From: Mesorhizobium sp. M3A.F.Ca.ET.080.04.2.1
GTDB lineage: Bacteria; Pseudomonadota; Alphaproteobacteria; Rhizobiales; Rhizobiaceae
Length of the DNA stretch: 64,000 nt
NCBI RefSeq assembly: GCF_003952525.1
Contig: NZ_CP034451.1
Span: forward strand, 2,046,001-2,110,000
Direction of reading: 5' to 3'
The notes beneath the pieces were generated by a model that was not told the DNA's origin, did not search any database, and worked only from the letters and a program-made list of their open reading frames with translations. Each line of letters starts with the position of its first letter. Position 1 is the stretch's first letter. Both the position numbers and the translations under genes were made by a program. This document shows positions 23,194-42,753 of the stretch, one piece after another.

Positions 23194-24714
23194 GTGACCC
23201 TGAACATTGTCGGCCAGGCCAAGCCGAATTCATTCACCTTCGAGACCAGCGCTCTCATAAAAGCCACTGGCTTTCGCGAATATGACGCGCGCTGGTGGTT
23301 CGGCCATGCGGGTTCCGAGAAAGAGCCCGAACTCAACCTGATGGGCGTGCAGGCGCTCGGCATGGGACTGGGCACGCTGATCCGCCGAATGGGCGTAGGT
23401 CCGGAGATCGTCACCGGTCACGACTTTCGCGGCTATTCCATGGCCATCAAGATGGCGCTGGTCTGCGGCCTGATGGCGGCTGGAGCGCGGGTCAAGGACA
23501 TCGGCCTGGCGCTTTCCCCCATGGCCTATTTCGCGCAGTTCGCGCTCGACGCTCCCTCGGTGGCCATGGTCACGGCCTCCCACAACGAAAATGGCTGGAC
23601 CGGTGTGAAGATGGGAGCCCAAAGGCCCCTGACCTTCGGCCCGGAGGAAATGACAGCCCTGAAAAAGCTCGTGCTGGATAGTGATTTCGATCTGGTGGGC
23701 GGCGGAAGCTACGAGTACATCACCGGATTCCGCGACAGATACATCGAAGACCTGACCGCCGGGAAGAAGATCAGGAGGAAGCTGAGGGTGGTGACTGCCT
23801 GCGGCAACGGCACCGCGGGGGCCTTTGCGCCGCAGGTGCTGGAGCGCATCGGCTGCGAGGTCATCCCGCTGGATGTCGAACTCGACCACACGTTTCCGCG
23901 CTACAATCCCAATCCCGAGGACATGCAGATGCTGCATGCGATCCGGGACAAGGTTCTCGAGACGGGCGCCGATCTCGGGCTCGGTTTCGATGGCGACGGC
24001 GACCGTTGCGGCGTGGTCGACAATGAGGGCAGCGAGATTTTTGCCGACAAGGTCGGCGTCATGCTGGCGCGCGACATTTCCGGTCTGCATCCGAACTCCG
24101 TCTTCGTGGTGGACGTGAAGTCGACCGGGCTTTTCATGACGGATCCCGTTCTCGCGCAAAACGGCGCGACGACGGATTACTGGAAGACCGGCCATTCCTA
24201 CATCAAGAGGCGTGTTGCCGAACTCGGCGCCATGGCCGGCTTCGAGAAATCGGGACATTTCTTCTTCAATCCGCCGATCGGGCGCGGCTATGACGACGGG
24301 CTCGTCACGGCGATCGCAGTCTGCGAGATGCTCGACCGCAATCCAGGCAAGACGCTTGCGCAGCTTTATCGCGACCTGCCGTTGACCTTCGGCACCCCGA
24401 CCATGTCGCCCCACTGCGCCGACGAGGAGAAATACGGGGTGGTCGCGAAGGTCGTCGGAGACTTCACGAAAATGAGGGAGGACGGGATCGAGTTCGCCGG
24501 GCAGCCGCTGGCTGATCTCGTCACTGTCAACGGGGTGCGCGTCGTTGCCCAGGACGGCACCTGGGGCCTCGTCAGGGCCTCGTCGAACAAGCCCGAAATC
24601 GTCGTCGTGGTGGAGAGCCCCGTCTCGGCTGAACGACGTCGGGAGATGTTCGAGGCTCTCGATGCGGTCCTGCGCCGCAATCCAGGGGTCGGAGCCTATA
24701 ACCAGACATTCTGA
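23194..24714 (+). CDS. manB: Phosphomannomutase/phosphoglucomutase
   Basis: Cytoplasmic alpha-D-phosphohexomutase of 506 residues converting mannose-6-phosphate to mannose-1-phosphate (possibly also glucose phosphates). The phosphoserine loop TASHNENGWTG has the catalytic Ser at about 129; the metal loop DGDGDR is at 266-271; the sugar-binding loop (GFEKSGHFFF) and a C-terminal phosphate-binding RASSNKPE are present. The start is GTG at 23194 with GGAG upstream. Only 12 bases separate it from the mannose-1-phosphate guanylyltransferase gene, so the two steps to GDP-mannose are made together. Confidence 0.9.
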   Translation: MTLNIVGQAKPNSFTFETSALIKATGFREYDARWWFGHAGSEKEPELNLMGVQALGMGLGTLIRRMGVGPEIVTGHDFRGYSMAIKMALVCGLMAAGARVKDIGLALSPMAYFAQFALDAPSVAMVTASHNENGWTGVKMGAQRPLTFGPEEMTALKKLVLDSDFDLVGGGSYEYITGFRDRYIEDLTAGKKIRRKLRVVTACGNGTAGAFAPQVLERIGCEVIPLDVELDHTFPRYNPNPEDMQMLHAIRDKVLETGADLGLGFDGDGDRCGVVDNEGSEIFADKVGVMLARDISGLHPNSVFVVDVKSTGLFMTDPVLAQNGATTDYWKTGHSYIKRRVAELGAMAGFEKSGHFFFNPPIGRGYDDGLVTAIAVCEMLDRNPGKTLAQLYRDLPLTFGTPTMSPHCADEEKYGVVAKVVGDFTKMREDGIEFAGQPLADLVTVNGVRVVAQDGTWGLVRASSNKPEIVVVVESPVSAERRREMFEALDAVLRRNPGVGAYNQTF

Positions 24715-24726
24715 GGGAACTGGACC

Positions 24727-27027
24727 ATGCCGGACCGGATCGTAAGTTTCGTCATGAGCGGAGGCGTCGGCTCACGGCTGTGGCCCCTCTCGCGCGAGGA
24801 CAATCCCAAGCAGTTCCACGACCTCTCGGGCGACGGCTCGATGCTGACCAAGACGGTGCGGCGGCTCAAGGCCCGGCCGGCCGGCGAGACGCCCGTCTAT
24901 CTGATCGCATCCGAGCGACATGCCGAACGCGTCCTCTCCGACATATCCCCGCTCGGCCTGAACGGCGGCAGGCCGATCTTCGAGCCGGTCGGGCGCAACA
25001 CCGCCGCGGCGGTTGCGATAGCCACGCTGCAGACCATCGCCGAACATGGCGGCGACGCCCTTGTGCTGGTGGTCCCGTCCGATCACGAGATATCGACCGA
25101 GGCGCAATTCTGGCAGACCGTCGAGGCGGGCAGTCCCGCCGCCCAATCCGGAAGCATCGTCGTGTTCGGCATCCAGCCGACCCATCCCGAGACCGGATAC
25201 GGCTACATCGAGGTTGCGGCGAAGGGCGACGGCGTGGCCGCAGTGTCGCGCTTCGTCGAAAAGCCCGACGCCGAGACGGCGCAAAAATATGTCTCTTCGG
25301 GACGGTTCTACTGGAACGCCGGCATCTTCCTGTTCCGCGCCGAGACGATGAGGCAAGCATTTCTGGAGTTCCAGCCGCAGATCTGGGAGACGGCCGAGCG
25401 GGCCTACAAGGCCGCGCGTGTCGAGGTCTCGGGCATCTATCTGCCGCTGAGCTTCTATTCGGCCATCCCCTCGATATCGATCGACTATGCGGTCATGGAG
25501 CAGGCGCGCGGCATCGCGATGGCGACCGCTTCATTCCGCTGGAACGACCTAGGATCTTGGCAATCGCTGCTCGAGGCGAGTCCGGCCGACGACGACGGCA
25601 ATGTCGTCATGGGCGACGTCGTCGCCATGGATTGTACCGGTTCCTACCTCAGAAGTCAGGGAAGGCTATTGACCGTCATCGGCATGAAGGATGTGGCGGT
25701 GGTGGCGACAACCGATGCCGTCTTCGTCGCTCCCGTCAGCCACAGCCAGAACGTCAAGAAAGTCGTCGAGCAGTTGGAGAAGAGCGGGCGATTGGAGACC
25801 AAGTTCACGCCGTCGGAAGACCGCGTGATCGTCAGCGGATCCTGGCGCAAGCGCGTCGAGCACTGGCTCTTCGACGAGACCCTGCCACTATGGTCCACCG
25901 CGGGTGTCGACGATGTCCATGGCGGCTTCCACGAAGCTCTCGGCTTCGATGCAAGACCGTTGGGCAAACCCAAGCGGATGCGCACGATGGCGCGGCAGAT
26001 CTACGCCTTTGCCGTGGCCAAGGAACGCGGCTGGACCGGACCGGCCGACAGGCTCATCGACCACGGCATCAGCTTCATCGCCAAACATGGCCGCACCGAG
26101 CGCGGCGGGTGGGTGCGCACGCTTCAACCCAATGGCAGCGTGGCTGACCCGGCGGAGGACGCCTATGACCATTCCTGCGTGCTGCTGGCGCTTGCCCATG
26201 CGCATCGATGCGGCCACCAGGATGCCTTGCGGCTGGCGCAGGAGACATTCCATTTCATCGACAACCATCTGGAGGACAACAGCCTGAACGGCTTCCTCGA
26301 GTCCCCCGGGTGGAAAGGGGCGCGTTTCTCGAACCCGCATATGCATATGCTGGAGTCCTTTCTTGCCTGGCATGACGTCACCGGCGACCGCGCCTATCTG
26401 CGCCGCGCCGCGCGCGTCATCGATCTCTTCCGGTGCCATTTCTTCGATCCGGAAAGCTGGACGCTCGGCGAACGTTTCGACGGCGATTGGCAGCCCTTGC
26501 CGGGAGACGATGGCCAGTGGACCGAGCCGGGGCACCATTTCGAATGGGCCTCCCTGCTCGTCGACTTCGCCAAGGCGAGCGGACAGAAGGACCTGGCGGC
26601 CTATGCAAGGAAGCTCTATTCCTCGGCGGTCGCCAGCGGGTTGAACCGCGCCACGGGCCTGGCCTACGCGGCCGTGTCGCGGACCGGAATCCCCCTCGAC
26701 CGGGTCTCTCGAAGCTGGCCGCAATGCGAGGCCGTGAAGGCGGCCGCCGCCCTGGACGGTATCGGCGGACCGGATCTGAAGCCGGAGATCGAGGCCCGCG
26801 TCGCCCGCCTCTTCAGATGGCACATCGATCCGGCGCCGCTTGGCCTGTGGATCGACAGGATCGACGAGCGCGGACGGTCGGTGGCGAGCGAAGTTCCTGC
26901 CAGCATCTTCTACCACCTTGTGACCGCGCTCATGCAGTATCTGGACAAGACCGGAGGACAGGTCGAGCCCTTCCCGCGGCCAGCTTCAGAACCGGACAAG
27001 CCGGCTGCCAGGCGCGTCTCTGCCTAA
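24727..27027 (+). CDS. Mannose-1-phosphate guanylyltransferase fused to AGE-type sugar isomerase
   Basis: Cytoplasmic two-domain enzyme of 766 residues. Residues 1 to about 350 are a GDP-mannose pyrophosphorylase: GGVGSRLWPLSR at 12-23, then NPKQF, VVPSDHEI and FVEKPDAETA. From about residue 374 there is an AGE-family (N-acylglucosamine 2-epimerase/mannose isomerase) alpha6/alpha6 barrel: HWLFDETLPLW, GGFHEALG, RTMARQIYAFA, SWPQCEAVKAAA. Classical ManC/AlgA bifunctional enzymes carry a cupin phosphomannose isomerase at this end; here an unrelated AGE domain sits there and probably supplies mannose-6-phosphate by isomerisation. It completes GDP-mannose supply with the mutase gene upstream. Confidence 0.88.
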   Translation: MPDRIVSFVMSGGVGSRLWPLSREDNPKQFHDLSGDGSMLTKTVRRLKARPAGETPVYLIASERHAERVLSDISPLGLNGGRPIFEPVGRNTAAAVAIATLQTIAEHGGDALVLVVPSDHEISTEAQFWQTVEAGSPAAQSGSIVVFGIQPTHPETGYGYIEVAAKGDGVAAVSRFVEKPDAETAQKYVSSGRFYWNAGIFLFRAETMRQAFLEFQPQIWETAERAYKAARVEVSGIYLPLSFYSAIPSISIDYAVMEQARGIAMATASFRWNDLGSWQSLLEASPADDDGNVVMGDVVAMDCTGSYLRSQGRLLTVIGMKDVAVVATTDAVFVAPVSHSQNVKKVVEQLEKSGRLETKFTPSEDRVIVSGSWRKRVEHWLFDETLPLWSTAGVDDVHGGFHEALGFDARPLGKPKRMRTMARQIYAFAVAKERGWTGPADRLIDHGISFIAKHGRTERGGWVRTLQPNGSVADPAEDAYDHSCVLLALAHAHRCGHQDALRLAQETFHFIDNHLEDNSLNGFLESPGWKGARFSNPHMHMLESFLAWHDVTGDRAYLRRAARVIDLFRCHFFDPESWTLGERFDGDWQPLPGDDGQWTEPGHHFEWASLLVDFAKASGQKDLAAYARKLYSSAVASGLNRATGLAYAAVSRTGIPLDRVSRSWPQCEAVKAAAALDGIGGPDLKPEIEARVARLFRWHIDPAPLGLWIDRIDERGRSVASEVPASIFYHLVTALMQYLDKTGGQVEPFPRPASEPDKPAARRVSA

Positions 27028-27220: not shown

Positions 27221-28954
27221 TCAGACCGTGGCAGGTTCCCGAAGCTCGTCCAAGGCCTCTTGAACACCCTGCGCCGCCGCCCGTTCAAGCCAGACGCGGC
27301 CTGCCGCAGGGTCGCGCTCTCCGGCGAGGCCCTCGGACAAGTAGCGTCCTAGCATCAGCTGCGCATGGCCATGCCCCCGCTCGGCCGCGGCGGTAAACCA
27401 TTTCTGGGCAGTTGCAGGGTCACGTGAAAGACCCTTGCCGCTCTCGTACAGCGCGCCGATCGCAAACATCGCCCCGGCGTGGCCGGCCGCGGCGGCCCGC
27501 TTGAAAAGTTGCGCCGCAGCCACGGGCATGGATTCGCCGCCGCGCCCGTTGAGAAGCATTTCGGCGAGCGCCAGCTGCGCGTCGACCATGCCGCCATTGG
27601 CCGCTCGCTCGAACCAGAGCCGGGCCTGCTTCTGGTCGGCGGTCATGCCGCGTCCATTTTGAAGCATGCGCGCATACATATATTGCGCCTCGGCCACGCC
27701 TTCGGCAGCGCGCCCCATCCATCGTGCCGCCTGCTCCTCGTCTTTTTGGACACCGATGCCCTCGGCGAAGCAGAGCCCAAGATTGAACGCTGCAATCAGG
27801 TCGCCCGACGAGGCGGTAGCCTCGAACCATCCGGCGACGCTGCTGCGGTCGGTGGGCTCGCCTGCCCCCAATAGCACCAGGTTGGCAAGGTCGACCTGCG
27901 CCTGTTGATTTCCGCCGTTCGCGGACACGCGCAGCCAGCGTGCCCCCTCATCGGCATCCTGAGCGACCCCGTTCCCGGAGAGGTAAAGCGAGGCCAAGGC
28001 ACGTGCGGCCGGCTGGTGACCTCCCTCGGCCGCCCGCCGGTACCACGTCGCGGCCTCGGCGTAGTCCGGACGCGGGCTCTTCACATGCCGCTCGCCGATC
28101 CGATAAGCCGCATCGAGATTTCCCGCCAGGGCGGCGCGGCGCATCCAGGCCTCGCCGGCAACGGGATCCTTGTCCGTCAGGCTGCCGTCGATCAGCGCGT
28201 GCCCCAGCCGCAGTTGAGCGGATGCAAGGCCCTTCTCCGCGGCCAGCTGGTAGAATTGCGCGGCTGCCTCGAGATCAACGGCCACACCCATCCCGTGCTC
28301 GGTGAGGACCGCAAGAAGGTAGATCGCCGTCGGCAGCCCGGCATCGGCGGCGCGCCGCACCTCGGCGGCAATCCTGCTCCTATGCTCCGGCTGCCGCAGC
28401 CGGACCAGGGAAAGGGCAAGACCAAGGCATCCTTCCGGACAACCGGCGGCCGCGGACTTCTCATACCAACCATGCGCGGCATCGAGATCGCGCATCGCTT
28501 TGGGGCCCCTGCTCAGGATATAGCCAAGTACCGCCTGTCCTGCAGCGGAGCCGGCTTCGGCGGCCTTGGTTGCCAGGTCGAGCGCCGCTGCCCAGTCCGG
28601 CTCTCGAGAAACATCCCGTTCGAACAGGGTCGCCGAAGCGGCGCCGTTCCCGTCGCCCTCCCGGCTTGCCAGTCCGGCCGCGTAAAGGGCGGCGAGGAGC
28701 GATTGCGCGTCGGAGTTGCCGCGATCGGCCGCTCGCCGCAGCCAGCGCGCACCTTCTGACCGGCTGGGCGGAACGCCCAAACCTTCGAGATAGCATCGAG
28801 CAACCCGATACTCAGCCTCCGCGATTCCGGCACGCGCCGCAATTGCCATGAGCGGGAAGGCCTCGGCGGGCTTGCCGTCGCCGGAGAGCTGGATCGCCCG
28901 GCGCAATGCAAGCGTTGGACGAGCATAGCCGGTCAGTCGGTCCAGCATCGCCAT
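27221..28954 (-). CDS. Sel1-like repeat protein
   Basis: Protein of 577 residues made almost wholly of about 14 Sel1/TPR-like repeats of 36 residues (A-x2-G-x2-A-x2-x-L-G pattern, for example AQLRLGHALIDGSLTDKDPVAGEAWMRRAA). No signal peptide or membrane segment is seen, so it is probably cytoplasmic. Such solenoids bind other proteins. It starts one base after the HlyD gene stop and is the last gene of the collagen-export operon, so a role as chaperone, targeting factor or regulator for the exported collagen-like protein is likely, though inferred. The short C-terminal end after the last repeat has no recognisable domain. Confidence 0.82.
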   Translation of the reverse strand: MAMLDRLTGYARPTLALRRAIQLSGDGKPAEAFPLMAIAARAGIAEAEYRVARCYLEGLGVPPSRSEGARWLRRAADRGNSDAQSLLAALYAAGLASREGDGNGAASATLFERDVSREPDWAAALDLATKAAEAGSAAGQAVLGYILSRGPKAMRDLDAAHGWYEKSAAAGCPEGCLGLALSLVRLRQPEHRSRIAAEVRRAADAGLPTAIYLLAVLTEHGMGVAVDLEAAAQFYQLAAEKGLASAQLRLGHALIDGSLTDKDPVAGEAWMRRAALAGNLDAAYRIGERHVKSPRPDYAEAATWYRRAAEGGHQPAARALASLYLSGNGVAQDADEGARWLRVSANGGNQQAQVDLANLVLLGAGEPTDRSSVAGWFEATASSGDLIAAFNLGLCFAEGIGVQKDEEQAARWMGRAAEGVAEAQYMYARMLQNGRGMTADQKQARLWFERAANGGMVDAQLALAEMLLNGRGGESMPVAAAQLFKRAAAAGHAGAMFAIGALYESGKGLSRDPATAQKWFTAAAERGHGHAQLMLGRYLSEGLAGERDPAAGRVWLERAAAQGVQEALDELREPATV

Positions 28955-28955
28955 G

Positions 28956-30362
28956 CTATGGCTCCCGCATCGCTTCCTGGCCTATCGGAAGCATGGCGCC
29001 GAGAATGTATTTGAGCACGGTCCTGCGGCCCACCTTCACGTCCGCGGTGACCGGCATGCCGGGGCTGATCGCAAAGCCGGGGGGCACGCCATGCAGGGCG
29101 ACATCGTCGATGGAAATCTGCGTGCGATAGAACAGGTCTGCATCCGCGGGCAGCATGGCCAACGAGCTGTTTGGATCGCGCGCCTGCTCCCGAGCGGAGA
29201 AGGAGTCCGGGCTGACCATGCGGACAGTTCCGTGCGCCAGGCCGTATTGCGAATAGGCGAAGGTGTCGAACTTGATGGCCACGGGATCGCCGACATGAAC
29301 GAAGCCGCTGCTGCGGCCGACAATGTTCGTCTCGACCTCGAGCACCGCGTCGGCCGGAACAAGGGTGATCAGGCGCTCCCCGGACTGCAGGACCGAGCCG
29401 ACCGAGACTTTGGCGACCGACTGAACGGTGGCATCGGCCTCGCTCTTCAGCTCCACCAGCTGTTTGCGCAGCTTCGCCTTGTTGAGAAGCTCGCGGGCGT
29501 CGGACACGCGAGAATTGGCATCCGAAAGGCTCTGCGAGACCTCGGCACGCCAACTCTGAATGTAGGCGTCACGCTCCGCTTCAGCCGACGCCCGCTGACG
29601 CTTGGCGGCCTCCGTCGTCTGCTCGGCGTTGCTGAGCGCGCGCGCCATCTCAGCCGAATTGTCCTCGGCGAGAAGCGTGTTGAGACGGCTTCCGACCTGT
29701 CTTTCCTCGAGTTGCTGACGCATCTTCTCGATCGACGCCGCCACAGCCAGCCTTTGCCGATAACCCTCGGCGTCCGACTGAGAGCGCGAGATGACTGAGC
29801 TCAACTCGTCACGCTGCCGGTCGAAGCTTTCCAGCTTGGCATCGAACACTGCCTTGCGACGCTCGAAGATCGAAGCTTGCAACGTCCAGCTCGGATCCAG
29901 TCCGTCATAGCTGAAGGGCTTGCCGTCGGCCTCCGCCTTCAGGCGCGCCACCTCGGCTTCGAGCGTCGCCACCTGGGTCGCCAGCGACGCGAGGTCGGCC
30001 GAGGCGAAGGTGGCGTCGAGGCGAGCCAGCACTTGGCCGGCCTTGACGCGCTGGCCTTCGCGCACCTCGATCGAACGGACGATCGCTGTCTCCAATGGCT
30101 GGACGATGATGTTGGGCGATTGCGACACGACCATGCCCCGGGTCGTGACAACCTGGTCTACCGGTATCAGCGCCGCGAGCGCGATCAATGCGACGACCAG
30201 GCTAGTGATGATCCAGACGATGCTGCGCGCCACCAGCGGAATGGGTGCATTGGCGACCGCTGTCGACGGCCACTGGAACTCGAGGATGGCCGGCGCGGTC
30301 GGATCGCTGGCCTGCGACAGCCGGCGGCGGGCAGGAAGGGTGGGATAGGTCGCGCTGCTCAT
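28956..30362 (-). CDS. Type I secretion membrane fusion protein, HlyD family
   Basis: Periplasmic adaptor of 468 residues linking the inner-membrane ABC exporter to an outer-membrane TolC-like channel. One N-terminal membrane helix (about 45-66, SIVWIITSLVVALIALAAL) is followed by a lipoyl half (VVSQSPNIIVQPLETAIVRSI), a long coiled coil (about 110-310), the second lipoyl half and the HlyD signature region ending KVGRRTVLKYILG. The start at 30362 lies 13 bases after the ABC gene stop. No TolC gene is visible in the window, so the outer-membrane partner must be elsewhere. Confidence 0.9.
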   Translation of the reverse strand: MSSATYPTLPARRRLSQASDPTAPAILEFQWPSTAVANAPIPLVARSIVWIITSLVVALIALAALIPVDQVVTTRGMVVSQSPNIIVQPLETAIVRSIEVREGQRVKAGQVLARLDATFASADLASLATQVATLEAEVARLKAEADGKPFSYDGLDPSWTLQASIFERRKAVFDAKLESFDRQRDELSSVISRSQSDAEGYRQRLAVAASIEKMRQQLEERQVGSRLNTLLAEDNSAEMARALSNAEQTTEAAKRQRASAEAERDAYIQSWRAEVSQSLSDANSRVSDARELLNKAKLRKQLVELKSEADATVQSVAKVSVGSVLQSGERLITLVPADAVLEVETNIVGRSSGFVHVGDPVAIKFDTFAYSQYGLAHGTVRMVSPDSFSAREQARDPNSSLAMLPADADLFYRTQISIDDVALHGVPPGFAISPGMPVTADVKVGRRTVLKYILGAMLPIGQEAMREP

Positions 30363-30375
30363 GGCCGGCCGACCC

Positions 30376-32679
30376 TCAAACGAGCCGGGGCGGCACGGCC
30401 GCCAGGCGGCCATGGCGCCCGTCAAGATGCCGGTTCTGCTGCATCCACAGCTGCCGGTAGAGCCCGCACCGCTCCAGCAGGACGGGATGCGGCGCGACAT
30501 CGAGCACCTTGCCCTGTTCCATGACCAGGATCTGGTCGCACTCGGTTAGCGAGGCGAGCCGGTGCGAAACGATGATCATGGTGCGGCCGCTGGCGATGCG
30601 CATGAGATTGGCGCTGACCACCGCTTCGCTCTCCGGGTCGAGCGCGCTCGTCGCCTCGTCGAGGATGAGGATGGTCGGATCGTGGATCAGCGCGCGGGCG
30701 ATGGCCAGCCGCTGCTTCTGGCCGCCCGAGAGGTTGGGCGATCCTTCCTCGATATAGGTGTCATAGCCGTTCGGCATGCGTTCGATGAACTCGGCCGCGC
30801 CGGCAAGGTGAGCGGCACGCATGGCGTCCGAAAGCGTCAGGCCGGGACGTCCGGCGATGATGTTGTCCCTGATCGAGCCGCGGAACAGAAAATTGTCCTG
30901 AAGGACAACACCCAGACCTTGGCGAAGGTGGCGAAGGTTGATTTCCTTGAGATCGACCCCGTCAAGCTTGAGGAAACCGCTGTAGTCGCGATTGATGCCC
31001 TGCAGGAGGCGCGCAATCGTCGACTTTCCGGATCCGCTGCGCCCGACGATGCCGAACATCGTGCCAGCCGGAACCTCGAAGCTGACGCGGTCGAGCGCCG
31101 GCGTCTTGGTGCCGATGTAGCTGAAAGTCAGATCGCTGAACTTGATTTCGCCGACGAGCTTTGGCCGCAGGCCGGCAGAATTGGAACTGCTTTCCAGCGG
31201 GCGGTTCAGAACCGACGCTGCCTCGCCGATCGCGGCGCCGACCTCCTCGTAATCCTCGACCAGCCGAGCCAGGCCGACCAGCGGCTGCGCGACACGTTGC
31301 GCGATCATCATGAAGGCGAACAGGCTGCCGACCATATAGCCCGACCGGTCGCTCATCGCGAGATAGGCGCCGATCAGCATGGTGCCGAGAACCATGACGC
31401 GCTCTATCGGCGTGACGAGGGTTTGCGGCCAATTGGACAGTTGCCCGAAGGCGAGACGCGCCTTGCCTGCGTCGGCCACCCGTTCGTCCCAAAGCGCCTT
31501 GCGTTGCGGTTCGAGGCCGAGCGCCTTCACGGTCTTGATGCCGACGACGGTCTCGCCGAGCGCAGCCGCCTTCCAGGTCTCGGCGTCGACCACGTCCTGG
31601 TAGCCCCGGCGCAGCGGCGGTAGAAAGGCAAAGATGATCAGCATGATCACGACCGCGCAGGCAAGCACCATCCAGGCGAGCGTGGCGTTGATGTAGAATA
31701 TGACCGGGATCAGCACGGCGAGCGTGATCAGGTCCAGGAACGTGCTGAGGAGCTTGCCGGTGAGGAACTCGCGGATGCGATAGACCTGCGCCAGGTGGTA
31801 CATGGTCTCGCCGGCCGGATGTCGCTCGAAATAGTCGAGCGGCAGGCGTAGCAGCCTGCTGAAAACATGCAGGTTCAGCTTGGTGTCGAGGCGCGCGCCG
31901 ACGACGTTGATGATCAGCCGTCGGGCGTGGCCGAGCAGCGTCTCGTAGATGAAGACGACGGCGATGACGGCGGAGAGCAACACCAGGGTCGAGACACTGC
32001 TGAACTGCAGCACCTTGTTGACGACCGTCATGACGATCAGCGGGGGCAGGATGGTCAGGATGCTGAGCGTGAACGAGGCGATGCCGATGTCGCGGAGCGG
32101 CCGGCCCTCGAGCCGCACCAGATCGACCAGCCAGCGGAAGGTGAAGGGTGCGTCGGCGGCTATATAGGACCGCGCCGCCCGCAACAGGACCGCTTCGCCC
32201 GACCACACCTGCAAAAGCCGGAGCTCGTCGATGGGGACCGCCTCCGCATCGTCGGGCGTATCGACGCTCTTGAGGAAAACGACGTTGCGTTCGGCGCTGG
32301 CGCCGGTCAGCAGGGCAGCGCCGCCATCATTGAACAGCAGGACGACCGGCCCGGCATGCTCGAAGCGCTGGAGATGCGACCAGCGGACGCGGAGCGCGCG
32401 CGACCACATGCCGGCATTCTGAGCCCATTGCGAAAGATCGGCGGCGCTTGGAACAGCGCCCCCGCTCGCCGCCCTGAATTCGTTCGGATCGAGTTCGACA
32501 CCGTGATAGCGGGCGACCTGAAGCATCGCCTTGAGGCGCGGCCCCATGCGGTCGAACTCGGCTGGCCCGCCAGGAATCCGCCCGGCGCCGGTCTCGCTTC
32601 CAAGCTGGCCGGCCGTATCCGCCTGCGCTTCTGGCTGGTTGCGGGCCGGGTCCGCCTGTGGGCTCAGATGTACGCTCAC
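30376..32679 (-). CDS. Type I secretion ABC transporter with C39-like (CLD) domain
   Basis: Exporter of 767 residues. Residues about 40-160 look like a C39 peptidase fold but contain no Cys at all, so this is a substrate-docking CLD as in HlyB, not a leader-cutting peptidase. Six membrane helices follow, then the ATPase: VGRSGSGKST, LSGGQKQRLAIARAL, ILDEATSALD and the H-loop VSHR are all intact. The GTG start at 32679 has GGGGAG upstream. It lies directly downstream of the collagen-like gene and upstream of HlyD, so the collagen-like protein is its likely cargo. Confidence 0.9.
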   Translation of the reverse strand: MSVHLSPQADPARNQPEAQADTAGQLGSETGAGRIPGGPAEFDRMGPRLKAMLQVARYHGVELDPNEFRAASGGAVPSAADLSQWAQNAGMWSRALRVRWSHLQRFEHAGPVVLLFNDGGAALLTGASAERNVVFLKSVDTPDDAEAVPIDELRLLQVWSGEAVLLRAARSYIAADAPFTFRWLVDLVRLEGRPLRDIGIASFTLSILTILPPLIVMTVVNKVLQFSSVSTLVLLSAVIAVVFIYETLLGHARRLIINVVGARLDTKLNLHVFSRLLRLPLDYFERHPAGETMYHLAQVYRIREFLTGKLLSTFLDLITLAVLIPVIFYINATLAWMVLACAVVIMLIIFAFLPPLRRGYQDVVDAETWKAAALGETVVGIKTVKALGLEPQRKALWDERVADAGKARLAFGQLSNWPQTLVTPIERVMVLGTMLIGAYLAMSDRSGYMVGSLFAFMMIAQRVAQPLVGLARLVEDYEEVGAAIGEAASVLNRPLESSSNSAGLRPKLVGEIKFSDLTFSYIGTKTPALDRVSFEVPAGTMFGIVGRSGSGKSTIARLLQGINRDYSGFLKLDGVDLKEINLRHLRQGLGVVLQDNFLFRGSIRDNIIAGRPGLTLSDAMRAAHLAGAAEFIERMPNGYDTYIEEGSPNLSGGQKQRLAIARALIHDPTILILDEATSALDPESEAVVSANLMRIASGRTMIIVSHRLASLTECDQILVMEQGKVLDVAPHPVLLERCGLYRQLWMQQNRHLDGRHGRLAAVPPRLV

Positions 32680-32820
32680 CGTGCACTCCCCCTGCAACCT
32701 ACAAGCGAGAGTTCGAGGATGCTCCGGTCACACCGCCTCAGCCGGGGTTTCCGGCAAGAGCCATCATAGTCCGAACAGGCCCGCGATACGACCCCTTTGC
32801 CTGCAAACAGGACGTGAGCA

Positions 32821-32850
32821 CGCGGGCCCTGCGTTTCCGCAAGGCCCGCG
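32821..32850 (-). terminator. Strong GC hairpin after the collagen-like gene
   Basis: An inverted repeat with an eight-base outer stem (CGCGGGCC/GGCCCGCG), one mismatch, a four-base inner stem (TGCG/CGCA) and a GAAA tetraloop on the minus strand. It starts about 20 bases past the stop of the collagen-like gene. No T-run follows, so it may stabilise the collagen mRNA 3' end or attenuate read-through into the transporter genes rather than stop it fully. Confidence 0.6.
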
Positions 32851-32871
32851 CGCATTGTTTTAGACCAACAC

Positions 32872-36567
<3,696 letters not shown>

Positions 36568-36628
36568 TCAATTCAAGGGGAAACCGCTCACCGACCTGAC
36601 CGGCGAGCGACGGGAACAAGCAGCGGCG

Positions 36629-36943
36629 TCATCTTCCGGGCGCCCCGACGGCACCATCGGGATGTTGAACCGCAGGGATCTCCACCCGCAGGAAGCTCGC
36701 GACCTGGAAATTGCCGCCATCGTCAAACGTGCCGATCGCCAATGAGCCGGCGGTGCTTGGGACCTTGACGGTGAGCGCGACGGCGAGGCTTCGCTTGACG
36801 GCCTTGGGAAGAATGACCTGACCGACGATCGAGTTCTTGGCGGTGTCGAGCACGAAATAGGTTACGTTCTCGGTCGAGTCGCCTATGGGCAGGACGCCTC
36901 GGACGGTGACTTCCATGACCGCAAAGCTCGCTGTGTAGCTCAT
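36629..36943 (-). CDS. Small beta-domain protein related to the collagen-like protein's second domain
   Basis: Protein of 104 residues starting at the ATG at 36943, which has a very strong GAGGAGGA site. No signal peptide. It aligns with residues about 177-255 of the collagen-like protein next door: YFVLDT with YYLVDT, VGQVILPKA with [15 protein letters not shown] with ITVTVP. The shared fold is thus present both free and attached to the collagen. It is the first gene of the operon. It could be an assembly, capping or co-exported subunit; the function is unknown. Confidence 0.75.
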   Translation of the reverse strand: MSYTASFAVMEVTVRGVLPIGDSTENVTYFVLDTAKNSIVGQVILPKAVKRSLAVALTVKVPSTAGSLAIGTFDDGGNFQVASFLRVEIPAVQHPDGAVGAPGR

Positions 36944-37476
36944 TATATCCTCCTCGATCCGTTGCGACTTGCGCCGCCGCTTTTCTTTCGTCCTTTGGGT
37001 TTCAGTCCGTGCGGAGCGCCCGCCGCCCGCCCGGGCGGGCCACGTTGGCGAGAGCCGAAAAAGTTCCAAGTTCATGAAAGCGCCGCAGCTTCCGAGACGA
37101 GCGCATGGCAGTCGCTGGTGAACTCTTGAGGGCGGCGAGCTTTGGGCGGGGCGGAGACAGAGCGAGACGGGAAGCCGCGCCAGCGCGACACCGTTTGGTG
37201 GGCGATATCACTCGAACCACTGTCAACTCCATCACGCGTGTCGCGATTTTCTCGACGACGACTGCGAGAGGGAACCGACTACTGGCGATGGAACATCAAT
37301 GGGGAGACGGCCGGCCGTGGATCACAGGCTGAAGTTGACCCGACGATACGCTTGCACGCCTAAAGCAGTGCGCCTTCACGCATGAAGGGCTTGCTCCCGG
37401 ATACTCCTACTAGCTCAGCAGACATACGCGAAACGGCGGTCCTTTCGCTCGATCCGCGGATACCCTCCCGTTACAT

Positions 37477-37505
37477 TAGACATTAGTAAATTCGAAATTT
37501 ATAAC
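37477..37505 (+). promoter_or_regulatory. Candidate sigma-70-type promoter
   Basis: TAGACA at 37477-37482 and TATAAC at 37500-37505, each matching five of six consensus bases, 17 bases apart. It would drive plus-strand transcription toward the large glycosyltransferase gene with a leader of about 600 bases. A weaker minus-strand pair (TTGTAA, 19 bases, TATAAA) uses the same AT-rich stretch, so the promoter may work both ways. Confidence 0.4.
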
Positions 37506-37506
37506 C

Positions 37507-37528
37507 TTGTAAATGGTTTAGTTTACAA
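37507..37528. promoter_or_regulatory. Operator-like inverted repeat
   Basis: A perfect seven-base inverted repeat, TTGTAAA then eight bases then TTTACAA. It begins one base after the candidate -10 box and so covers the expected start of transcription, as a repressor site would. The regulator is unknown and not encoded next to it. Confidence 0.45.
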
Positions 37529-38109
37529 CTTATGAATAGCAGAACTGCGATGCACTATGGGCCCGGTCGGAAGGACGTTGAAAATCCGAGGCTTAGACCG
37601 GTGCCGCTAGTCGAGAAAAAATTGCTTGCGGCCAGGTCCTGGCCTGCCTGGCAGCGTCTCGATTTGTTCGGGGAGGTCCGGCCGGCTCTTGCCGTTGCGA
37701 AAAGGCTGGCTCACCATAGGCGAAGGCGGCGTGGTAGCGGGCGACCTGAAACCGCCCGAAAGAGCGCAACTTGCCAGATAGAACCCGCGAGTTTTGCCAC
37801 AAGGCCTGGCAATGATCGCGCGGGGGCATGCATAGAGCGTAAACTCGGATGAATACTCATCTAAAAGGATTGCTGTCGCAGATGGCAGAGCGGTGCAAAT
37901 ATGATTGTCTCAGCTCGCGGTCATCCGAGGGGCGACAGTCAAAAACATGACAAGCGGCAAACATCTTTGCCTCAAATGATCGTCGATTTTGAAACGGCAA
38001 ATTGCAGGTGCTGGTTCGCAGCGCCTGGTGTGCGCGGCGGGCCGCAAGCACCCCCTTTTCACCATTTCGAACAGGCGTGCAAGAAACGTCGCCGCGCTGA
38101 AGGATTGGC

Positions 38110-40902
38110 ATGAGCACCATCGGCCTGTGCATGATCGTCAAGAACGAGACGAAAGTCATCGAGCAATGCCTGACCAGCGTCCTGCCGCTTGTCGACTATA
38201 TTCTCATCGTCGACACGGGTTCCACGGACGGCACACAAGACCTCATCCGCGGCTTTCTCACCGCACACAACGTCGCCGGTGCCGTCATCGACGAGCCTTG
38301 GCGGGACTTTGCATACAACCGCAGCTTCGCCCTCGAGAGACTGCGCGAGGTCGAGACTGTCGATTATGCGATGATCATCGATGCCGACGATGTGCTGATC
38401 CAGGATCCCGACTTCGAGCCGACCGTCTTCAAATCGCGGATGGAACACGATTTGTACGACGTCGAGGTGTCTCATGGCGGCATTTCGTTCTATCGCCCGC
38501 AGATCTGCCGCAACCGACTGCCTTTCTCCTTCAAGGGCGTGCTGCACGAATATCTCGAGGCTCCTCCAGGCGCCATCACGAGACAGAATGCCGAGGGGTT
38601 CCGCATTGCGACAGGACGCGGCGGAGCGCGCAGTCAGAACCCGCGAAAATACCAGGACGATGCGGCCGTGCTGGAGAATGCGCTTACAACCGAGACCGAC
38701 CCGTTCCTGATCTCGCGCTACACCTTCTATCTCGCGCAGAGCTACCGAGATTGCGGTGAACGTGAAAAGGCGCTGCAACATTATCTGAAGCGCGCCGAAC
38801 TTGGGTTTTGGAGCGAGGAGATCTATGTAAGCCTGCTCGAGGCCGGCAACCTCATGGCGGCCCTCGGGCGGGACTTCGAAGAGGTCGTCGCGGTTTACGA
38901 GCGTGCGACCCAGACCGTACCCACTCGCGGGGAAGCTCTGCACGCAGCGAGCAACTATTGCCGCAACCAAGGCCGAAACGCCGAAGGGCAGGAGTTTGCG
39001 CGTCGCGGCCTGGACCTCAAGGAGCCAGTCGGCCTGTTCGTTCAGCCTTGGGTATATGACTACGGGCTGCTCGACGAGTTTTCGGTCAACGCATATTGGG
39101 CGGGCGCATATCGGGAGTCGCTCGATGCCTGCCTGAAATTGCTGGCCTCTGACAAATTGCCGCCGGACATGGTGAAGCGCGTGGCCGCCAATGCCCGTTT
39201 CGCCTCTGACAAGCTCCAGGTCCGCGAGTCACCGGAATTGGGAAGGCTCGGCGCCGAGAGCCTGGTCGAGCAGCACAGGCTGGTTGCGCAGCGTCCGCTG
39301 CGCTCGCGGCTAAGGGGCACGCCGCGCGTCCTGGTCGCGATATTGGCCAAACAGAAAGAACCCGCGCTGCCGCTTTACCTGGCATGCATCGAGTCGCTCG
39401 ACTATCCTAAGGACTCGATCGTCCTCTACATCCGAACAAACAACAACACCGACAGAACCGAGCAGATATTGCGCGAATGGGTGGAGCGCGTCGGCCAACT
39501 CTATGCGGCGGTCGAGTTCGACAGTTCGGACGTAGCCGACCGGGTCGAGCAGTTTCGCGAGCACGAATGGAACGAGACGCGTTTCAAGGTGCTTGGCCGG
39601 ATCCGCAACATCAGCCTGCGCAAGACCCTCGAGCACAATTGCGACTTCTATTTCGTCGTCGACGTCGACAATTTCGTGCGGTCGGCCACGCTGCGAGAGC
39701 TGGTCGCGCTCGACTTGCCGATCGTGGCGCCGCTGCTGCGCTCCATCTCGCCGGGCCAATACTATTCGAACTACCACGCCGAGGTCGACGCGAACGGCTA
39801 CTATGCGAAGTGCGATCAATATGGCTGGGTCCTCAACCGCCATGTGCGCGGCGTCATCGAGATGCCGCTCGTGCACTGCACCTATCTTGTGCGCGCCGAC
39901 GTGCTGACCGAGCTTACATATGAGGACGGCACATCGCGATATGAATATGTCATCTTTGCCGACAGCGCCCGACGATCCGGCATCGTCCAGTACATGGATA
40001 ACCGGCAGGTCTACGGCTACATCACCTTCGGCGATCATGAATACTACGTGAGTGGCGGGATCGAACGCGCAGGCGAGCTTTTGCGCAACGCGGGCGACGT
40101 CCCCTTGTTGAGCGGCGCCACGGGCTCTGGGCCCGCTCCGATGCTGGCGCGACCTGAGCTGACGGACCCGCCGAAGATACATCTGATCAACCTGGACCGC
40201 AGCGCCGAGCGCTGGAACAGGTATCAAAGTCATAATTGGCATCTGATGCACAATACGGTTCGCGTGTCGGCCGTCGATGGCGCTTCCCTGGACAGGGATG
40301 CGCTCATCGAGGACGGTATGATCACCGATGACTGTCCCTATCCCCCGGGGACACTGGGATGCGCGCTGTCACATATCAATTTGTGGAAGCGGTCGGTTTC
40401 GGAGAACAGGACGATTACCGTCTTTGAAGATGACGTTCGCGCATCGTATCGATTCATGGAGGAGTCCGCCGACATCCTGTCCCGAGCGCCGGCAGGTTGG
40501 GACCTGATACAGTGGGGTTATATAATTGATCCCTCGTTCATCTGGCTGGATTTCGGTCTTACGAACGCCAAGCTGGAATTCTACGATCGCCGCTACGCCA
40601 ACAGAACTGCGTTGTTTCAGTCGGAAAAGTTCCCCAGATCGCTCATCCGCCTGCAGCATTCATTTGGAACGCAGGCCTACACCGTCTCGCCAAGAGGGGC
40701 GCGAATCCTTCTCGAGAAGTTGCTGCCGCTGCGAAGCCGCCTTGTCCCATTTCCCGGGACTCCCGTGGTGCTGGACGACACCGGCATCGATTGCGCGATG
40801 TGTGGGGCCTATGGCTCGATGCAGGCTTACCTCTGCATGCCGCAACTCGTTGTCCTGGATGACGGGCTGCCTTCAGATCGAACAACTACGGACCACGGTT
40901 AG
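38110..40902 (+). CDS. Three-domain glycosyltransferase: GT2, COLGALT N-domain-like, GT25
   Basis: Cytoplasmic protein of 930 residues with AAGGA ahead of its ATG. Residues 1-180 are a GT2 domain (IGLCMIVKNE, VDTGSTDGT, IIDADD). About 200-390 are TPR-like helices. About 404-680 match, from memory, the N-terminal glycosyltransferase half of animal collagen galactosyltransferase COLGALT1 (RVLVAILAKQ, REWVERVGQLYAAVEF, VVDVDN near 516-521, MPLVHCTYLV). About 688-930 are GT25, as in the second half of COLGALT (IHLINLDRS, LGCALSHINLWK near 749, VFEDDVR near 772). It faces the collagen-like operon. Likely job: building a glycan on the Thr/Ser of the collagen before export. Confidence 0.85.
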   Translation: MSTIGLCMIVKNETKVIEQCLTSVLPLVDYILIVDTGSTDGTQDLIRGFLTAHNVAGAVIDEPWRDFAYNRSFALERLREVETVDYAMIIDADDVLIQDPDFEPTVFKSRMEHDLYDVEVSHGGISFYRPQICRNRLPFSFKGVLHEYLEAPPGAITRQNAEGFRIATGRGGARSQNPRKYQDDAAVLENALTTETDPFLISRYTFYLAQSYRDCGEREKALQHYLKRAELGFWSEEIYVSLLEAGNLMAALGRDFEEVVAVYERATQTVPTRGEALHAASNYCRNQGRNAEGQEFARRGLDLKEPVGLFVQPWVYDYGLLDEFSVNAYWAGAYRESLDACLKLLASDKLPPDMVKRVAANARFASDKLQVRESPELGRLGAESLVEQHRLVAQRPLRSRLRGTPRVLVAILAKQKEPALPLYLACIESLDYPKDSIVLYIRTNNNTDRTEQILREWVERVGQLYAAVEFDSSDVADRVEQFREHEWNETRFKVLGRIRNISLRKTLEHNCDFYFVVDVDNFVRSATLRELVALDLPIVAPLLRSISPGQYYSNYHAEVDANGYYAKCDQYGWVLNRHVRGVIEMPLVHCTYLVRADVLTELTYEDGTSRYEYVIFADSARRSGIVQYMDNRQVYGYITFGDHEYYVSGGIERAGELLRNAGDVPLLSGATGSGPAPMLARPELTDPPKIHLINLDRSAERWNRYQSHNWHLMHNTVRVSAVDGASLDRDALIEDGMITDDCPYPPGTLGCALSHINLWKRSVSENRTITVFEDDVRASYRFMEESADILSRAPAGWDLIQWGYIIDPSFIWLDFGLTNAKLEFYDRRYANRTALFQSEKFPRSLIRLQHSFGTQAYTVSPRGARILLEKLLPLRSRLVPFPGTPVVLDDTGIDCAMCGAYGSMQAYLCMPQLVVLDDGLPSDRTTTDHG

Positions 40903-40999
40903 AAAGGAACAGCTAGCACCTGACTGATGCTGTTTCCGCTCCGAGACAGTCTCATACTGCCATTGGACCATATGTAAACTCCGGCGCGAGTGATCTTCC

Positions 41000-41722
41000 T
41001 TGAACCATACATCTACAAACAACGGATTGCGTATACACACAATAATATTTTGTTGGCCAAATAAGGTCGACAACGTCACCCGGATATATCAACAGGCACG
41101 CCTTCGGTCTGCAAAAGCTACTGTCATTGACTCTTCTCTGGATCCTATTCCAGAAGGTGTCATCAATGACGATTGGCTGAAGATTGATAGCAGTCATTAC
41201 TACGGAATGGCCTTCAAAAGAGCTCTTGAATGTTTTGATGGCGATATTCTCTTGCAGATACAGGGAGACGTCCTAGCCGATGATTTTGGTAAGTTGGTCG
41301 ATTTGTGCTACAAGCGATTCTATAATGACTCGAGTCTGGGAATTTGGTCTCCCGAAATCGACAACACGGCGTTCCCCACGCGAAACGTGGAGATCATGAA
41401 TACGCGCGATCCACATCTAAAGGTCGTTGCGATGACAGACTGCATCGTATGGGCGCTGACGGTTTCCGTCGTTAGATTCCTGCGCACGCTTGAATATAGC
41501 GACAACAATCTTGGCTGGGGAATCGATTGGGCAGCTTGCGCCTACAGCTTCGCGAACAAGCTGTCGGTCATGCGGGATGCGTCAGTTTCCGTAATACACC
41601 CTCCTGGCAGTGGTTACGGTCATGAGGAGGCCAGGCGGCAACAAGCCATGTTTTTGTCTCAACTTGGTAGAGCTGAGGCAATCCAGTACGCGCTCCTTTC
41701 TCGCCGTGTGTTCGGAAGATAA
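41000..41722 (+). CDS. Low-GC GT-A-like protein of unknown function
   Basis: Protein of about 240 residues. It opens RIHTIIFCWPNKVDNVTRIY and has LLQIQGDVLADDFGKL and GWGIDWAACAYSFANK, which recall GT-A glycosyltransferases (a DxD-like GDV/ADD site and a GWGxDW acceptor motif). A stop at 40991 in frame leaves only TTG starts (41000 or 41027) and no clear SD. GC is about 44% over 41041-41160, well under the neighbours, suggesting recent acquisition. Its position 97 bases after the large glycosyltransferase gene suggests it adds a further sugar in the same system. Confidence 0.65.
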   Translation: MNHTSTNNGLRIHTIIFCWPNKVDNVTRIYQQARLRSAKATVIDSSLDPIPEGVINDDWLKIDSSHYYGMAFKRALECFDGDILLQIQGDVLADDFGKLVDLCYKRFYNDSSLGIWSPEIDNTAFPTRNVEIMNTRDPHLKVVAMTDCIVWALTVSVVRFLRTLEYSDNNLGWGIDWAACAYSFANKLSVMRDASVSVIHPPGSGYGHEEARRQQAMFLSQLGRAEAIQYALLSRRVFGR

Positions 41723-41829
41723 AAAATTATGAATGCGATCGGATCCAACATTTGCGCTCCTGCATACTCGTCAAGAAATGTACAACCGCGAACCCATCTC
41801 AACTGTCAGCAATCATGAGGTGACGTCGG

Positions 41830-42753
41830 TTGCTGAGAAGGCGAGAATTTACGGGGCTGGTTTTCGTCCTCGCGGCCCTCGCGTCGGTTTCAACAATGGT
41901 CAAGCGGCGAAGCAGTAGCACGCAGGGCAATTCCACGGCCCCATCGCCGTCATCTCCCGAAACCGTGCCCTCGACCTCCCTGCTCACCGCCCCGATCGAG
42001 CTTGCCGGAGACTGGGGCGGCATGCTGGAGGGTGCTGCCGTTCAGGTGGTCGAGCGCATGCGGCACGCATGCCTCGGCGGCGTCCGCCTCCTCTCCGACC
42101 GGCAGCCGGCGCGATTGCGCGTCGAGGAACATACATCCGGCCCACCGGCCATCTGGCTGCATCGCGACGGCAGCAGCATGGCCTGGATCATCGTCGACAT
42201 CGGCGAGCGGGACTGGTCGAAGCTCGCCTACCAGTTCGGGCATGAACTCGGCCATGTGTTTGCCAACAGCTGGCAGGCCGATGCCAAACCTGCCCCGCCC
42301 TGCCAATGGCTCGAGGAAGCCATGGTCGAAGCCTTCTCGCTGCGCGGATTGGGGCGCCTGGCGAAGGAGTGGAAAAAGAACCCGCCCTTCGCAGGCGACA
42401 ACGCCTTCGGCGACGCCATTGGCAAGTATCGCGAGAACATCATCAAAGGCTACGCCGCTTTGGCGGACGCCCAGGGGCTTACCCAGGATCCAGCCCTTTG
42501 GTTCGCCAATCACCAAAGCGAAATCGAGGTTCCGAACCTCAATCCATTCGCAAAAGCCATGTCCCTCAACATCCTGGCGGAATACGAACGGGTGCCGGAT
42601 TGCGTCGAGGCGCTGGGCGCGCTCAATCGCTGGCCGGGGCGCAGCGGAATTCCGATCGCCGACTATCTGTCGCAATGGGCAAAAAGCTGTGCCGATTTGC
42701 AGGCTTCACCGCGACTGCCGGAGCACTTGCGCGACATGCTGCATATTGCTTAG
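41830..42753 (+). CDS. Exported HELGH zinc metallopeptidase-like protein
   Basis: Protein of 307 residues starting at TTG 41830, with GAGG 9 bases upstream. An N-terminal hydrophobic segment (about 9-24) serves as signal or anchor, followed by a Ser/Thr/Pro-rich linker (about 25-50). The zinc motif HELGH is at 138-142 and a downstream EEAMVEAFSLRGLGRL offers the third ligand Glu, a gluzincin arrangement. The family is not recognised. Lying after the glycosyltransferases of the collagen system, it might process surface proteins, including the collagen-like one; this is inference from position. Confidence 0.65.
   Translation: MLRRREFTGLVFVLAALASVSTMVKRRSSSTQGNSTAPSPSSPETVPSTSLLTAPIELAGDWGGMLEGAAVQVVERMRHACLGGVRLLSDRQPARLRVEEHTSGPPAIWLHRDGSSMAWIIVDIGERDWSKLAYQFGHELGHVFANSWQADAKPAPPCQWLEEAMVEAFSLRGLGRLAKEWKKNPPFAGDNAFGDAIGKYRENIIKGYAALADAQGLTQDPALWFANHQSEIEVPNLNPFAKAMSLNILAEYERVPDCVEALGALNRWPGRSGIPIADYLSQWAKSCADLQASPRLPEHLRDMLHIA

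Follow-up and report, generated by a model that had tools for sequence, protein, structure and literature searches.

What is a glycosyltransferase built on the plan of an animal collagen-modifying enzyme doing beside a bacterial collagen gene? The question is raised by a gene block at positions 27221..42753 of a 64,000-nucleotide stretch of DNA from Mesorhizobium sp. M3A.F.Ca.ET.080.04.2.1 (contig NZ_CP034451.1, positions 2,046,001 to 2,110,000; hereafter, the window), which sits in a 6.17-Mb single-contig genome and has its closest named protein relatives in Mesorhizobium. The initial annotation of this DNA described an operon for a collagen-like protein and its exporter, facing a divergent 930-residue enzyme, and read the whole as a self-contained system that makes, glycosylates and secretes a collagen fibre. 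All the genes that it named were recovered at their positions by open reading frames (ORFs) and profile matches; its inventory left unnamed a metallopeptidase-like gene within the same range (41830..42753). We consider it probable that the block encodes a self-contained glycocollagen system, in which the collagen would be glycosylated in the cytosol by the multidomain glycosyltransferase (GT), exported by a type I pathway and trimmed. Judged from sequence, collagen glycosylation is the best reading of the gene content, co-inheritance, composition and homology.

The collagen-like protein (32872..36543, minus strand; 1223 residues) matches the Pfam Collagen family (PF01391, 1.5e-106), and all 20 PF01391 matches (E 0.001) in the window genome fall within this one gene. 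An N-terminal DUF4347 domain (residues 7-168; 36040..36525, minus strand; PF14252, 1.3e-37) precedes the helix, which by residue count is a single run of 262 Gly-X-Y triplets (residues 297-1082; 33298..35655, minus strand) with five Pro and no Lys; the uninterrupted tract together with the Pfam match marks this as a bacterial collagen-like protein. A stricter regular expression retains 258 triplets, with Thr at Y in 255 and Val, Ala and Pro once each, and with Ala (183), Ser (53), Asp (16), Pro (4), Thr (1) and Gln (1) at X, which bears out the earlier statement that nearly every Y is Thr and that Pro is nearly absent. The hydroxylysine chemistry of COLGALT, which the initial annotation listed as background, is not applicable as such, because the 262-triplet helix offers no Lys as an acceptor.

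The GT (38110..40902, plus strand; 930 residues), with Pfam matches to GT2, Anp1 and GT25 and weak ones to TPR, combines two architectures. The first consists of a GmaR/SunS-like GT2 domain (about residues 1-170; 38110..38619), identified by structure-database profile matches and an invariant motif, and a TPR region (about residues 178-370; 38641..39219), seen as weak Pfam matches, helix pairs in the model and TPR matches. In a GT family profile of 15 sequences (A1), D91, D93, D94, H146 and E147 of the GT2 domain are invariant in 15/15, and the GT2 part finds GmaR (1.8e-18) and SunS (1.1e-8) as its nearest relatives among solved structures; the GT-A domain, the TPR (by the model and weak matches) and the conserved DXD reproduce the GmaR/SunS-type layout. 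The second architecture consists of a COLGALT/LH3-like GT-A domain (about residues 402-661; 39313..40092; DVD at 518-520), identified by its COLGALT1 match, followed by a GT25 domain (about residues 687-925; 40168..40884; EDD at 773-775), identified by Pfam and profile matches. An LH3-like GT-A domain and then a GT25 domain is the layout of COLGALT, as the initial annotation had proposed for the last two domains, and residues 396-803 match human COLGALT1 at 1.9e-40 (1e-57 with the A1 profile). All four parts are encoded on the plus strand. Two DXD motifs of COLGALT (human 166-168 and 461-463) are described as essential for activity (PMC3244457), and the first corresponds to D518-V-D520, with Asp at both positions in 44/44 A2 sequences. 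When the COLGALT-like part alone was used as a protein query, the best 120 of 687 matches were mostly the same multidomain relatives, along with some proteins of 490-515 residues, which could be either stand-alone or truncated at contig ends. Some metagenomic relatives of the GT (P0054, P0063, P0088 and P0118) are fused to sulfotransferase, SGNH/GDSL hydrolase or FkbM methyltransferase domains, suggestive of glycans that carry sulfate, acyl or methyl groups.

The initial annotation had itself proposed co-occurrence of the GT and collagen genes in related genomes as the test of its reading, which withstood this test. Searches with the window GT (E 1e-20, up to six candidates scored per genome) found the GT in 52 of 146 genomes of the genus. 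The DUF4347 domain is present in all 52 and in two others, which carry it with giant adhesins, and the metallopeptidase-like gene in the same 52; the corresponding Fisher tests for co-occurrence with the GT give 1e-37 and 7e-41, respectively, with kinship ignored. PF01391 (E 1e-5) was detected in 51/52 genomes with the GT vs 34/94 without it, and at least six collagen matches in 46/52 vs 0/94. In the single genome missed (G048), the DUF4347 domain lies about 400 bases from a contig end, so that its collagen tract may be cut off. Because these P values take no account of kinship, an rpoB tree was built for 30 of the 146 genomes, 15 with and 15 without the GT, which we chose, using sequences selected by a motif filter. 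On this tree, the presence of the block requires seven changes, six of which are forced by well-supported branches, so that the block was evidently gained or lost several times.

The constant part of the enzyme is not the one that the initial annotation had put forward. In the 33 GT loci fetched (of 52), GT2, TPR and DUF4347 are found in 33/33, the COLGALT-like domain in 12 and GT25 in 19; in our reading of the match table for all 52 genomes, GT2-TPR occurs in 52/52 and the COLGALT-like part in 15 (in pieces in G017 and G134). Another six genomes have a close GT2-TPR without the COLGALT-like part, and 31 have a distant GT2-TPR (34-37%; type B) in proteins of 1,261-1,316 residues (one of 699). 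Among the 20 type B loci fetched, the COLGALT-like domain is found in 0/20 and GT25 in 8/20, and in the single type B protein that was scanned, GT2-TPR is followed by a Gly_transf_sug stretch. By these counts of 52/52 and 15/52 genomes, GT2-TPR is the universal part and the COLGALT-like unit the exchangeable one, and the idea of the COLGALT-like module as a constant part of the enzyme had to be given up.

The composition of the helix follows the presence of the GT. The fraction of Thr at Y (hereafter, Y-Thr) is 0.79-1.00 in 33/33 loci in which collagen and GT are linked, and at least 0.94 in 32 of these, vs a median of 0.06 for unlinked collagens (26 loci, two exceptions; Mann-Whitney 1e-9, kinship ignored). 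The unlinked set comprises seven regions of the genus, from 7 of the 34 genomes that have collagen and no GT, with Y-Thr of 0.00-0.15, and 19 regions of the class. The class sample contained 337 genomes, with 30 other collagen-positive genomes, and 20 regions from 19 of them were fetched; L150 was dropped for too short a run, and 17 of the 19 regions kept have Y-Thr of at most 0.26. GT parts were not found by BLAST in any of 27 unlinked regions, and the A1 search of the class sample, with up to two candidates scored per genome, gave matches only in the window genome (G000) and in G171, whose two GT25-only matches lie far from its collagen.

The association extends beyond Mesorhizobium. From a scan of the genome_contigs collection, the best 80 loci were kept, of which 38 have a collagen tract in the DNA examined, with a median Y-Thr of 0.90; the 80 also include Mesorhizobium loci, such as those of M. 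jarvisii LMG 28313 (L014) and M. erdmanii USDA 3471 (L013). The COLGALT-like domain is present in 28 loci, 19 of them with collagen; where this domain is present and each flank extends for 9 kb or more, collagen is found in 7/7, with Y-Thr of 0.58-1.00, and it is found in 12 of all 29 loci with flanks of that length. In Blastochloris, Xanthobacter and Ancylobacter, the genes follow in the order collagen, ATP-binding cassette (ABC) exporter, HlyD, Sel1, metallopeptidase-like gene (on the opposite strand) and GT2-TPR-COLGALT-like, and the same order is seen in Rhodomicrobium (L035) from the ABC gene onward, where the contig starts; DUF4347 was not found by BLAST in the linked Blastochloris, Xanthobacter and Ancylobacter loci (L025, L028, L033, L034 and L039). 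In contigs of Candidatus Babeliales and Chlamydiia, GT2-TPR and a COLGALT-like ORF are separate neighbours beside collagens, and their COLGALT1 matches (6.2e-24 and 3.9e-35) cover the N-domain only. For 18 loci without nearby collagen (17 genomes), collagen is encoded elsewhere in 15/17 genomes. Thr is the commonest Y residue in 3 of 12 such distant places (one per genome), and in four of six longer stretches, one of which is the same tract as L299. Another of the six, from the Methylobacterium fujisawaense genome of L091 (L307), is a complete block, in which 175/176 Y residues are Thr and the collagen is accompanied by genes for ABC, HlyD, Sel1, a fused GT2-TPR-COLGALT-like protein, the metallopeptidase-like protein and GT25. 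In the genome of L029, a 786-residue collagen has Thr, Val and Lys as Y residues (L306, 8496-10853); a BLAST search of the 20 kb fetched there gave no relative of the block proteins.

Mobile elements carry related pairs into other export contexts. Nine of 16 matching plasmid records were opened, and eight of these have a collagen tract of at least 12 triplets, which is separated from the GT by 8-182 bp in six cases and by about 1.5 kb in the two Mesorhizobium plasmids. On Enterobacter and E. coli plasmids with an identical GT protein, the collagen is an autotransporter passenger with Thr in 40/45 Y positions, and in Cupriavidus CH34 it belongs to a protein with what we read as a lipoprotein-like start (29/42 Y = Thr); a Citrobacter allele of the autotransporter has only about three triplets. 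Three Enterobacteriaceae plasmid loci (L206, L291 and L292) combine an autotransporter with a Gly-X-Thr tract of variable length and a GT2-TPR gene. In Mesorhizobium ciceri (L202 and L293), the block is plasmid-borne (458 and 648 kb) and has cbb3 oxidase (cco/fix-type) genes in its vicinity; an FkbM methyltransferase gene adjoins the GT gene. Of the six matching phage records, three were opened: one encodes a tail fibre with 103 triplets, 65 of them with Thr, 3.7 kb from the GT, and the other two (genomes of 735 and 635 kb; L204 and L205) have GT2(-TPR) genes with no collagen within 12 kb. Among 80 loci on viral contigs, 39 have collagen at a looser run length. GT2 is accompanied by collagen in 32/63 loci, in 22/32 within 120 bp, distances that are not independent given that many of these phages look related; the best Y-Thr in these loci ranges from 0.00 to 0.91. 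Thus, GT2-TPR adjoins collagen in autotransporter, lipoprotein-like and phage contexts, so that neither type I export nor, in phages, Thr is an obligatory companion of the module. DUF4347 was not found by BLAST in 92 viral, phage and plasmid loci, except in the two M. ciceri plasmids, and the thymidylate synthase of phage Tunturi_5, used as a viral base-rate query, had no matches. The viral collection also contains stand-alone COLGALT-N-like proteins of 256-304 residues (L250-L262, L265, L267, L274 and L280), with collagen in 7/17 loci, and a locus (L208), perhaps of bacterial DNA, in which a relative of the 41830-42753 gene accompanies four GT2-TPR genes.

Several observations weigh against the proposed glycocollagen system. 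The genes are physically linked, and co-inheritance alone is no proof of joint action; physical linkage accounts for part of the co-inheritance, and more weight attaches to the linkage that other families have retained. Of the unlinked collagens, two are rich in Thr at Y, namely, L133 (1.00), an RTX-repeat protein, and L151 (0.80, over 15 triplets). The second DXD of COLGALT reads G796-W-D798 in the window GT, its first Asp being present in 12/15 sequences of A1 and 30/44 of A2 (7/44 gapped), and the RMQV stretch that follows it is not found in the window GT, which has LIQWGYIIDP after W797-D798 instead. Collagen is absent from the DNA examined in 42/80 genome_contigs loci and in 41/80 viral loci, some of them cut by contig ends. 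In eight Methylobacterium genomes, GT2-TPR lies away from the collagen, and K, P or A is the commonest Y residue at the single collagen place read per genome. Finally, among the 32 viral loci that have both GT and collagen, the best Y-Thr does not exceed 0.21 in seven. Together, the genome_contigs, viral and Methylobacterium loci do not uphold GT2-TPR as a universal marker of adjoining collagen. With these points taken into account, the proposal of a self-contained collagen system stands as regards co-inheritance, exporter linkage and the tracking of the GT by Y-Thr, but not as regards the COLGALT-like module as one of its constant parts.

How would such a system work? The collagen is predicted to be made in the cytoplasm, because its N-terminus is not hydrophobic and exporter genes adjoin it, and the GT, which has no export signal, would act there on the unfolded chain. 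The GT2 domain, docked via the TPRs, most likely adds the first sugar to Thr at Y, and the COLGALT-like and GT25 domains would then extend or diversify the glycan. This division of labour, with GT2-TPR priming and the remaining domains extending, is suggested by the universality of GT2-TPR, the exchangeability of the COLGALT-like unit and the same layout in GmaR. Its main alternative, that the COLGALT-like unit primes, is the less likely of the two and is nonetheless to be taken seriously.

The glycosylated chain would leave through the HlyB-CLD/HlyD pair and a TolC encoded elsewhere, as the protein families indicate. The exporter genes, on the minus strand like the collagen gene, comprise the ABC protein of the HlyB/CLD type (30376..32697; TIGR01846 at 1.1e-156, below the cut-off; TTG start codon, uncertain), the HlyD-type membrane fusion protein (28956..30362; TIGR01843 at 4.3e-131, over the cut-off; start at 30362 taken from the ORF reading) and a Sel1-repeat protein (27221..28954; 10 Sel1 stretches in Pfam). 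The ABC protein has no Cys in residues 6-200, and hence its C39-like domain lacks a catalytic Cys. As in HlyB-type secretion, the ABC and HlyD genes stand beside the gene of the putative substrate in one operon, and a TolC-type outer membrane factor is encoded outside the locus, TIGR01844 being over its cut-off at G000:C1:5794658 in the window genome. CLD exporters are described as going with RTX cargo (PMC8277102), whereas the putative cargo here, a collagen, gives no Pfam match to RTX. The ABC gene is seen in 16/33 linked loci and in six more of these genomes after re-fetching further out, in keeping with the exporter linkage asserted earlier, which is borne out wherever the fetched stretch is long enough; the Sel1 protein is present in 18/18 re-fetched flanks of GT-bearing genomes and, on this gene arrangement, is part of the exporter operon. 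The C-terminal tail of the collagen (32875..33297, minus strand), which ends in ...LKDILKPNE, is a candidate type I secretion signal that may direct export; it is conserved across Mesorhizobium collagens and not in the Xanthobacter group.

Outside the cell, trimerisation would be nucleated by the beta domain that the collagen has in common with a small protein encoded upstream (36629..36943, minus strand; 104 residues). The ORF of this protein opens at 37075; the ATG at 36943, with GGAGGA before it, fits homologues of about 104 residues. It is found in 31/33 linked loci, its stand-alone copies are 63-90% identical, and its profile matches the beta domain preceding the collagen helix (probability 94.9, E 4.3e-8, profile-profile), hence the small protein may act as a cap or nucleus for trimers. 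The last gene of the block, a gluzincin-like metallopeptidase candidate (41830..42753, plus strand; 307 residues) with a hydrophobic N-terminus, would be anchored and trim the secreted collagen or its propeptide. Its HELGH (138-142) and E162 conform to an HExxH motif with a putative zinc-binding Glu downstream, H138, E139, H142 and E162 being invariant in the 28 sequences of A3 and HExxH present in 32/33 ORFs; in fold comparison, there was no Foldseek match below 0.001, and the sole PDB sequence found up to E 1 was at chance level (0.9). The gene was seen in 17/33 linked loci, counting only inside the fetched stretch, and, by its distribution across genomes, it is part of the block. As the initial annotation inferred, the product may be a fibre for the cell surface or the extracellular polysaccharide (EPS) matrix, and its helix may require the sugars.

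Among the other explanations, decoration survives best, although we regard it as unlikely. On this account, the GT would modify a few sites, or build a long glycan for adhesion or masking, and the Gly-X-Thr helix would fold by hydration bonds without sugar, as proposed for other bacterial collagens. The GT modules differ between genomes (types A and B) while the repeat remains unchanged, which would fit a decoration that varies, Y-Thr is low in some phage collagens next to a GT, and, in the account of PMC8968730, Thr makes up 31.6% of Y residues in all bacteria and bacterial collagens are mostly described as unglycosylated. However, Thr saturation of about 98% tracks the GT in Mesorhizobium, and decoration needs no Thr at every Y. 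It is far less probable that the GT acts on the small beta protein or the DUF4347 domain instead of the helix: DUF4347 is present in 33/33 and the small protein in 31/33 linked Mesorhizobium loci, but DUF4347 was not found by BLAST in Blastochloris, Xanthobacter, Ancylobacter or most viral and plasmid loci, many of which keep the collagen repeat. That the GT builds lipopolysaccharide (LPS) or EPS and adjoins the collagen merely within a cell-surface island is the least credible account, since, even with the LPS biosynthesis record names of some relatives and the ManB/ManC genes adjoining the operon in the window, sugar genes lie beside the block in 1/18 flanks vs 52/52 genomes with the GT, DUF4347-collagen and metallopeptidase-like gene together, the solved structures closest to the GT2 part are those of GmaR and SunS, which glycosylate proteins, and this part also lies next to collagen in autotransporter and phage settings.

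Other features of the window lie in and beside the block. The collagen operon and the divergent GT have a common upstream region (36944..38109, no strand assigned), and this divergent arrangement recurs in Mesorhizobium loci. Convergent with the collagen operon (23194-27027) are genes for a phosphomannomutase and a mannose-1-phosphate guanylyltransferase/2-epimerase-type fusion, a possible GDP-mannose supply. These were considered as part of the block and set aside as not constant, with ManB and ManC adjoining it in 1/18 re-fetched flanks (L154); ManC is also present in L101 (the same genome as L154) and near one M. ciceri plasmid block, and ManB alone in L013. Between 40000 and 42000, the G+C content falls to 54%, and an ORF at 41000-41719 has no Pfam match and no match above 45% identity in related loci.

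Against this background, the block can be set beside known collagen-modifying systems. To our knowledge, the enzymes known for Bacillus BclA are not COLGALT-like, and no type I exporter takes part in its case; likewise, we know of no enzyme that glycosylates the collagen of the vent worm Riftia, and of no GT2-TPR part or type I exporter for the mimivirus proteins R699 and R655. BclA, which differs in being a spore-surface protein, is likewise a bacterial collagen described as glycosylated (PMC8968730). Riftia collagen, an animal protein, is comparable in its galactosylated Thr, which is held to add thermal stability (PMC10141479), whereas R699 and R655 provide LH3-like and GT25-like enzymes tied to collagen outside animals (PMC9546862; structural matches), encoded by separate genes, R699 being described there as glucosylating galactosyl-hydroxylysine. 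In contrast to animal COLGALT1 (GLT25D1), the bacterial GT has an extra GT2-TPR part in front, an incomplete second DXD with no RMQV after it in the window GT, a collagen partner without Lys and, in the absence of an export signal, a predicted location in the cytosol instead of the endoplasmic reticulum. Bacillus SunS, the acceptor of which is a bacteriocin Cys, and Listeria GmaR differ from it in having no COLGALT-like part. GmaR is described as a GT-TPR protein that puts N-acetylglucosamine on flagellin, a different acceptor, with the TPR proposed to hold the protein substrate (PMC9638930). In the titles and abstract openings of the open-licence literature (bioRxiv not included), no link between a COLGALT-like enzyme and a bacterial collagen appears, although such a link may still have been published.

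To conclude, the fullest version of this pathway would be a near-Pro-free bacterial collagen held by a sugar on nearly every Y-Thr, with GT2-TPR priming and the COLGALT-like unit extending, a CLD exporter outside the RTX rule, a gluzincin as procollagen proteinase and a COLGALT-type module that is an old mobile tool, which bacteria, phages and animals share and each apply to a collagen of their own; as a whole, we hold this only tentatively and would sooner expect some element of it to fail. The block, with related gene pairs next to similar collagens in further bacteria, in plasmids and in phages, makes it possible to test what holds a collagen together when it lacks hydroxyproline and what the origin of collagen-specific glycosyltransferases is. 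If glycosylation of the collagen by the GT is true, a function could be assigned to GT25/GT2 proteins, of which some at present bear the name of LPS biosynthesis enzymes, and the block would provide enzymes and an exporter for the production of secreted glycocollagen in bacteria.

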